From: Victivallis lenta
GTDB taxonomy: Bacteria > Verrucomicrobiota > Lentisphaeria > Victivallales > Victivallaceae
Direction: 5' to 3'
DNA length: 64,000 bases
NCBI RefSeq assembly: GCF_009695545.1
Contig: NZ_VUNS01000001.1
Location: 310,001 to 374,000, forward strand
Shown here: positions 57,873-58,182 of the stretch, piece by piece
Layout: every line of letters begins with the position of its first letter
How positions within the stretch are numbered: position 1 is the first letter of the stretch
Program-made: the position numbers and the translations under genes
The notes under the pieces: generated by a model
What the model saw: the letters and a program-made list of their open reading frames with translations, nothing else
What the model was told of the DNA's origin: nothing
Databases searched by the model: none

Positions 57873-57900
57873 TTGATTTCCGCCGGAACCGGTGTATAGT
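57873..57900 (+). promoter_or_regulatory. Promoter of small RNA copy 1
   Basis: TTGATT (57873-57878), 16 bp, TATAGT (57895-57900), about 8 bp before the closing stem of the RNA. Confidence 0.65.
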
Positions 57901-57906
57901 GAATAC

Positions 57907-58004
57907 CAGAAGGCAGGTCATACTCGGAATAGTATCAGCATCGGGCTCTCTTTTGAGCTTATTGTACACGGTAAACACGAGTGAATACAACCTGCCTTCT
58001 TTTT
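57907..58004 (+). ncRNA. Putative small RNA, copy 1
   Basis: About 98 nt. The closing stem AGAAGGCAGGT (57908-57918)/ACCTGCCTTCT (57990-58000) is followed by TTTT, giving a terminator-like end. Inside are ATACT/AGTAT, GGCTC/GAGCT, and a possible ACTCG/CGAGT pair. No coding frame is supported. It is nearly identical to copy 2 at 58086; they differ in the closing stem by an A-T to G-C swap that keeps pairing, good evidence for a folded RNA. Family not recognised; not tRNA or 6S-like in length. Confidence 0.65.
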
Positions 58005-58051
58005 CATCGTCTTTCCGGATCTCCCGCTTGCGCCGGCCATCCATTCCGCCC

Positions 58052-58079
58052 TTGATTTTCCCGGAAAACCGTATATAGT
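58052..58079 (+). promoter_or_regulatory. Promoter of small RNA copy 2
   Basis: TTGATT (58052-58057), 16 bp, TATAGT (58074-58079): same boxes and spacing as for copy 1, while most of the spacer differs. Confidence 0.65.
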
Positions 58080-58085
58080 GAATAC

Positions 58086-58182
58086 CAGAAGGCGGGTCAT
58101 ACTCGGAATAGTATCAGCATCGGGCTCTCTTTTGAGCTTATCGCACACTGCAAATCGAGTGAATACAACCCGCCTTCTTTTT
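58086..58182 (+). ncRNA. Putative small RNA, copy 2
   Basis: About 97 nt. The closing stem AGAAGGCGGGT (58087-58097)/ACCCGCCTTCT (58168-58178) plus T-run; it differs from copy 1 by a compensatory pair change, while the internal 3' part (TCGCACACTGCAAAT) varies more. The ACTCG/CGAGT helix is kept. Tandem with copy 1 and with its own promoter; the downstream gene (58264) is on the other strand, so this is not a leader. Confidence 0.65.

Follow-up and report, generated by a model that had tools for sequence, protein, structure and literature searches.

What is encoded by two nearly identical short units that stand one behind the other in the genome of Victivallis lenta, each with its own promoter boxes and its own terminator-like end? 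A sequence-only reading of the 64,000-nt window (by which we mean the whole stretch of DNA that was analysed) had taken them for a pair of small RNA genes, and its description of the locus proved accurate base for base. The first unit, like the second on the forward strand, has TTGATT (57873-57878) and TATAGT (57895-57900) separated by a 16-bp spacer and followed by a predicted transcript of about 97 nt (57908-58004); the second, at a spacing of 179 bp as read directly, has the same boxes at 58052-58057 and 58074-58079, again 16 bp apart, and a predicted transcript of 96 nt (58087-58182). An 11-bp closing stem, P1, joins the ends of each: AGAAGGCAGGT (57908-57918) pairs with ACCTGCCTTCT (57990-58000) in copy 1, where the 3' strand with its U-run to 58004 doubles as an intrinsic terminator, and AGAAGGCGGGT (58087-58097) pairs with ACCCGCCTTCT (58168-58178) in copy 2, where the T-run extends to 58182. 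Alignment of the units gives 91% identity across 152 columns, with the differences clustering in the spacer of the promoter, in the flanks and on the 3' side of the internal loop; as originally observed, the spacers differ while promoter boxes and RNA core are preserved. Since the copies differ at several sites of the RNA as well as in the spacers, duplication by assembly is unlikely.

The two closing stems differ by the swap of one pair, A-U in one copy and G-C in the other, with pairing kept, as had been noted. Taken alone, a single swap between two copies would prove little, and it is the homologues that settle its reality: this stem is paired in every one examined, and the refuting condition named at the outset, homologues that fail to maintain it, was looked for and not found. 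Both units fold far better than shuffled sequences (z of -5.3 and -4.9; none of 200 shuffles as good), which, together with the two-sided changes and the re-pairing of the closing stem in homologues described below, upholds the view that this is a real, duplicated, structured RNA. The predicted structure goes beyond the one stem originally recognised: inside it come another helix (P2), a large internal loop and, at the apex, a hairpin. That no known family could be matched also stands: cmscan with Rfam 15 gave no match to the RNA at gathering thresholds and none of relevance at E ≤ 5, the only hits being the tRNA and chance matches.

To survey the distribution of the RNA we used two covariance models, R1, of the RNA itself (106.6 bits for copy 1 and 98.7 for copy 2), and R2, of the core with the closing stem left out. 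BLAST detected 17 clear homologues and one weaker one in other Victivallaceae genomes, and R1 matched 64 of the 78 genomes of the family (33 of the 36 of good quality), almost always with one copy per genome, as well as genomes of other families of the order and class. The record NZ_QEKH01000021.1 of Victivallis vadensis DSM 14823, where the RNA is single-copy, is among the carriers. R2 matched 159 of 198 genomes of the class Lentisphaeria; the 39 class genomes where an R2 match is absent perhaps reflect divergence, incompleteness or strict filters. In a draw of 376 genomes from the phylum, 102 of 103 matches fell inside the class, the sole exception being weak (E 0.007) and in a genome that has a real 6S RNA, and none of at least 147 sister-class genomes with an Rfam 6S had a convincing copy of the new RNA. 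Two candidates were rejected: an R1 match in G215 (L097), apparently spurious, in a genome that carries a canonical 6S, and a pattern match (L201) in a record labelled Methanomassiliicoccaceae, which is not this RNA. Beyond what the window alone could reveal, the RNA is thus class-wide and normally single-copy, about 86-100 nt long in nearly all homologues, and the tandem pair, found among the genomes surveyed only in that of the window, is the exception. In this Victivallis genome the gene stands twice in a row, and a separate promoter and terminator go with either copy. A few other genomes (G048, G277 and G453) have two copies, on different contigs and not in tandem, which may be genuine or assembly duplicates.

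Its size near that of 4.5S RNA and its presence as a single-copy, class-wide gene might suggest an overlooked housekeeping RNA, such as the SRP RNA or tmRNA of this genome. For SRP RNA (RF00169) this is refuted, as a separate bacterial small SRP RNA lies outside the window, at G000:C1:402246-402344, and passes the cut-off (45.6 bits, with the gathering score set at 40), while cmscan of the window gave no such match; to the housekeeping explanation as a whole we give next to no credence. Another option is that the units serve a neighbouring gene in cis, as riboswitch, leader, attenuator or terminator pair; the closing stem with its U-run resembles a terminator. The units do lie between a tRNA-Lys/ribosomal protein L28 pair and an antiporter-like gene, all on the minus strand (the protein names come from reading translations alone), but this places the downstream gene on the opposite strand, and in other genera both the neighbours and their orientations vary. 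Gene neighbours are partly common within the genus and not conserved beyond it, and therefore we regard the RNA as a stand-alone gene; in other families no consistent linkage to one gene class was seen. Moreover, promoter and full structure travel together, and no Rfam riboswitch matches, making a cis element very improbable. A sigma70-type promoter precedes most homologues at the expected distance: upstream of 80 of them, the promoter-like pair at that distance has on average 8.56 of 12 matches, as compared to 6.70 ± 1.07 in shuffled sequences.

The overall fold is a rod of 90-100 nt made of P1, a small asymmetric loop, P2 and a large central bubble, capped by P3, an apical hairpin of 6 bp. 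P1 has about 8-14 bp and a sequence that is unconserved outside the family (in L088, for example, it is the unrelated GGUGAUGUCAC/GUGACAUCACC), and yet it is paired in every homologue examined. When the flanks of 39 homologues that had been found with the model lacking P1 were swapped, own 5' and 3' flanks paired far better than exchanged ones (mean score 21.4 vs 11.3; 0 of 10,000 permutations). P2 is typically CUCUG/(C/U)AGAG, with the compensatory forms CUCCG/UGGAG and CUCG/CGAG; in copy 1 it consists of CUCG (57923-57926) and CGAG (57978-57981) plus the pair A57922-U57982, and in copy 2 of 58102-58105 and 58156-58159. P3 is GGGCUC-UCUUUU-GAGCUU in copy 1 (57943-57960) and pairs 58122-58127 with 58134-58139 in copy 2. 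Because MAFFT alignment of full-length distant homologues misplaced the 3' strand of P2, cores were cut at the helix ends and then realigned. In P2 and P3 together, 89.5% of cells are paired and 50 two-sided changes are found, at six core pairs, against 18.6 ± 2.9 after shuffling; a one-column shift of the partner abolishes both the pairing and the two-sided changes. For P3 alone, 97.3% of cells are paired and four of the six pairs show two-sided changes. Its stem has 6-7 bp in 71 of 77 homologues and its loops are tetraloops or larger, while the 5' strand of the bubble is 14-15 nt long in 62 of the 77 and the other strand mostly 14-20 nt. Two members of the family, L086:2772-2871 and L087:933-1063, have longer apical arms with an extra inner hairpin and keep the A(-11)/U(-7) pattern described below; these arms are possibly intermediates or re-expansions. 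In L161, L162, L164 and L165 there is no clear U-run after the closing stem, and in such distant members the 3' end may arise by processing instead of intrinsic termination.

Conserved bases also lie at the edges of the bubble. On its 3' strand, at the end of the apical stem, a paired U occurs in 73 of 77 homologues, followed by an unpaired A in all 77 (although in a few of these cores the hairpin edge was corrected by hand and anchored partly on that A) and, four positions further, by a U in 70. This arrangement, U(-12) A(-11) NNN U(-7), appears to reproduce the register of a promoter -10 element. In an open promoter, as the primary sigma factor reads it, position -12 of that element is still paired, whereas -11 and -7 are flipped into pockets. 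Copy 1 has U57960 as the last pair (-12), A57961 at -11 and U57965 at -7. At the base of P3 the U's of the 3' strand are retained opposite partners that vary between G and A, and thus selection appears to act on the U. In copy 2, A(-11) is 58140, and the equivalent of -7 is C58144, not U (58140-58144; UAUCGC, vs UAUUGU in copy 1 and most homologues). With this C, copy 2 may bind more weakly or may be a specialised duplicate.

The 5' strand of the bubble, at 57928-57942 in copy 1, would correspond to the template strand, in a register placed by the conserved GAA-pyrimidine and by strand length, which fits about +3 to -11. The base after GAA, the expected +1 of the template, is C in 62, U in 15 and A in three of 80 homologues, i.e. 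a pyrimidine in 77, so that a product RNA would start with a purine. The predicted product is 5'-GUUCAGAG... in most species, this being the commonest sequence, and 5'-AUUCCGAG... in the window, where copy 1, with U57930 as the predicted +1 template base, would give 5'-AUUCCGAGUAUGAC. The product RNA (pRNA) of Bacillus subtilis 6S-1 is 5'-GUUCGGUC... (PMC12005410).

A strongly conserved strand of an internal loop, facing one that is mostly variable, is also what would be expected of a trans-acting base-pairing sRNA (Hfq/ProQ-like), in which the single strand GAACAAUA..GCAUC would pair with mRNAs in a class that lost 6S RNA independently; the RNA's own promoter, U-run and unconserved neighbourhood fit this as well. 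An antisense role, however, requires neither the bases conserved on the opposite strand at the edge of the loop (U A NNN U) nor a loop strand fixed at 14-15 nt. The closing stem ties up the RNA's 3' end, several distant members have no U-run, and base-pairing sRNAs are rarely conserved as a single-copy gene throughout a class; on balance this explanation is unlikely. One could also imagine another type of RNA polymerase-binding RNA, such as a binder of the core enzyme without sigma like Ms1, which has a length of about 300 nt. The rod shape with its central bubble is compatible with this, and the pattern of replacement is the same in Actinobacteria, a group without 6S RNA that has Ms1 instead (PMC9130861). 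Nevertheless, the conserved bases at -12, -11 and -7 are those that sigma region 2 reads, favouring the holoenzyme, and no other Rfam family matches, leaving a binder of this type less probable still than a base-pairing sRNA.

The remaining candidate is an RNA of the 6S type. 6S RNA, an off-switch for RNA polymerase that is abundant and builds up in stationary phase, is nearly universal; groups apparently without it are informative. The Rfam model RF00013 matched at least 147 genomes in a draw of 289 from the phylum, all labelled as outside the class, and none of 198 class genomes over the cut-off. A single weak match within the class (E 0.011) lies inside sequence that reads as coding. Neither the RNA stretch of the window nor 20 distant homologues gave an RF00013 match at E ≤ 5, and conversely R2, run against sister-class 6S RNAs with filters off, gave chance matches only. 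By the Rfam model test the new RNA is not a member of RF00013 and is filed as 6S-like. It shares with 6S a rod shape that has a central bubble between closing stem and apical stem (given the covariation of P1, P2 and P3) and has, by its sequence, a -10-like element in the 3' bubble strand; it does not reach the RF00013 gathering threshold in the window, the 20 homologues or the 198 class genomes, lacks a -35-like region in a long apical arm, and at about 95 nt falls short of the roughly 180 (180-200) nt of canonical 6S, its apical arm being cut to the 6-bp hairpin.

Comparison with the 6S RNAs of the sister classes nonetheless revealed a common layout. Both are rods in which an inner helix and a central bubble lie between closing stem and apical stem, normally encoded by one stand-alone gene; the apical stem begins with GGG, and, of 40 sister 6S RNAs, 26 have CUCU at the inner helix and 38 have, where the new RNA has it, an A directly after the 3' strand of the apical stem. 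The closing-stem sequence, in contrast, is unrelated, and that A is preceded by U-U in the new RNA and not by C-C. Cross-recognition was then tested with a gapped profile against column-permuted profiles: in 22 of the 40 sister sequences the 5'-strand profile of the new RNA landed on the P2/bubble site, a count reached by 1 of 400 permuted profiles (6.2 ± 3.8). The sister 6S RNAs are mutually related and the 22 hence not independent events, a kinship that the permuted-profile control accounts for. The RNA is likely to descend from canonical 6S. Since the models do not recognise each other, homology rests on the short profile match, the position and the mutual exclusivity of the two RNAs, and exclusivity could also be explained by a class that lost 6S and gained an unrelated RNA. 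The less likely alternative to descent would be an independent promoter mimic. Papers on 6S in Lentisphaerae or Verrucomicrobia were searched for, with no relevant result.

The reading that we favour, with a probability of roughly three in four, is a naturally minimal 6S-type RNA, a mimic of the open promoter that would occupy the RNA polymerase holoenzyme carrying the primary sigma factor; its anatomy, at least, appears to be that of a minimal 6S RNA. We infer polymerase binding, product RNA synthesis, transcription and physiology alike from sequence. The RNA would sit in the holoenzyme as a false open promoter, with sigma region 2 reading U(-12) A(-11) NNN U(-7) where the 3' bubble strand meets the apical hairpin, the 5' strand of about 14 nt (+3 to -11) lying in the active site as template, and P2 and P1 placed as the downstream duplex. 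A polymerase so held could not start at DNA promoters. Upon the return of nucleotides, a product RNA would be copied from the conserved GAA-C/U, and its synthesis would open P2 and free the enzyme, all in an RNA from which the -35-bearing arm would have been lost. The broader proposition, on which we are evenly divided, is that Lentisphaeria exchanged canonical 6S for an RNA half as long in which the -10 element is enough to capture polymerase, whether by extreme reduction or by convergent emergence of a new promoter mimic, so that the -35 arm, regarded as a key recognition element, is dispensable in nature.

If the minimal 6S-type reading is correct, the 6S gap of an entire class is filled by an RNA that keeps nothing but the central bubble and short arms, one that can be annotated in gut and environmental Lentisphaeria genomes. 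Such an RNA would define the minimal promoter mimic accepted by evolution and separate the roles of -10 and -35 contacts, and its conserved positions -12, -11, -7 and +1 would offer a simple template for experiments on the imitation of an open promoter by RNA. In addition, it would be the natural counterpart to a construct known from the test tube alone, 6S78 (see below).

Among known systems, Acido-Lenti-1 (RF01687) is a named RNA of Lentisphaerae (PMC2864571), and cmscan found no match to it in the window or in the RNA stretch. 6S-Flavo (RF01685, 108 positions), which occurs in Bacteroidetes (PMC2864571), is likewise a short 6S variant forming a family apart from the general 6S model, and has no match in the genome of the window. 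Ms1 is similar in being a lineage-specific RNA polymerase-binding RNA of a group without canonical 6S (PMC9130861), but it binds the core enzyme without sigma and has no match here. The tandem ssrSA/ssrSB genes of the Bacillus cereus group (PMC7726162) also place two 6S genes side by side; these, however, are co-transcribed from one promoter (PMC7726162), whereas each Victivallis copy has its own promoter and terminator-like end. The -35 mimic of Escherichia coli 6S lies in the apical arm, and the -35 region has been reported to be non-essential for basic function in B. subtilis (PMC8876501). The closest parallel is 6S78, an artificial 78-nt version of B. subtilis 6S-1 from which the -35 region is gone and which in vitro still binds sigmaA-RNAP, if about 10-fold less tightly, serves as a template for pRNA and can be released (PMC8876501). 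Like the new RNA it consists of a central bubble between two short helical arms, but while 6S78 is a laboratory construct, the RNA described here is a natural, class-wide gene whose binding to polymerase is predicted from its sequence.
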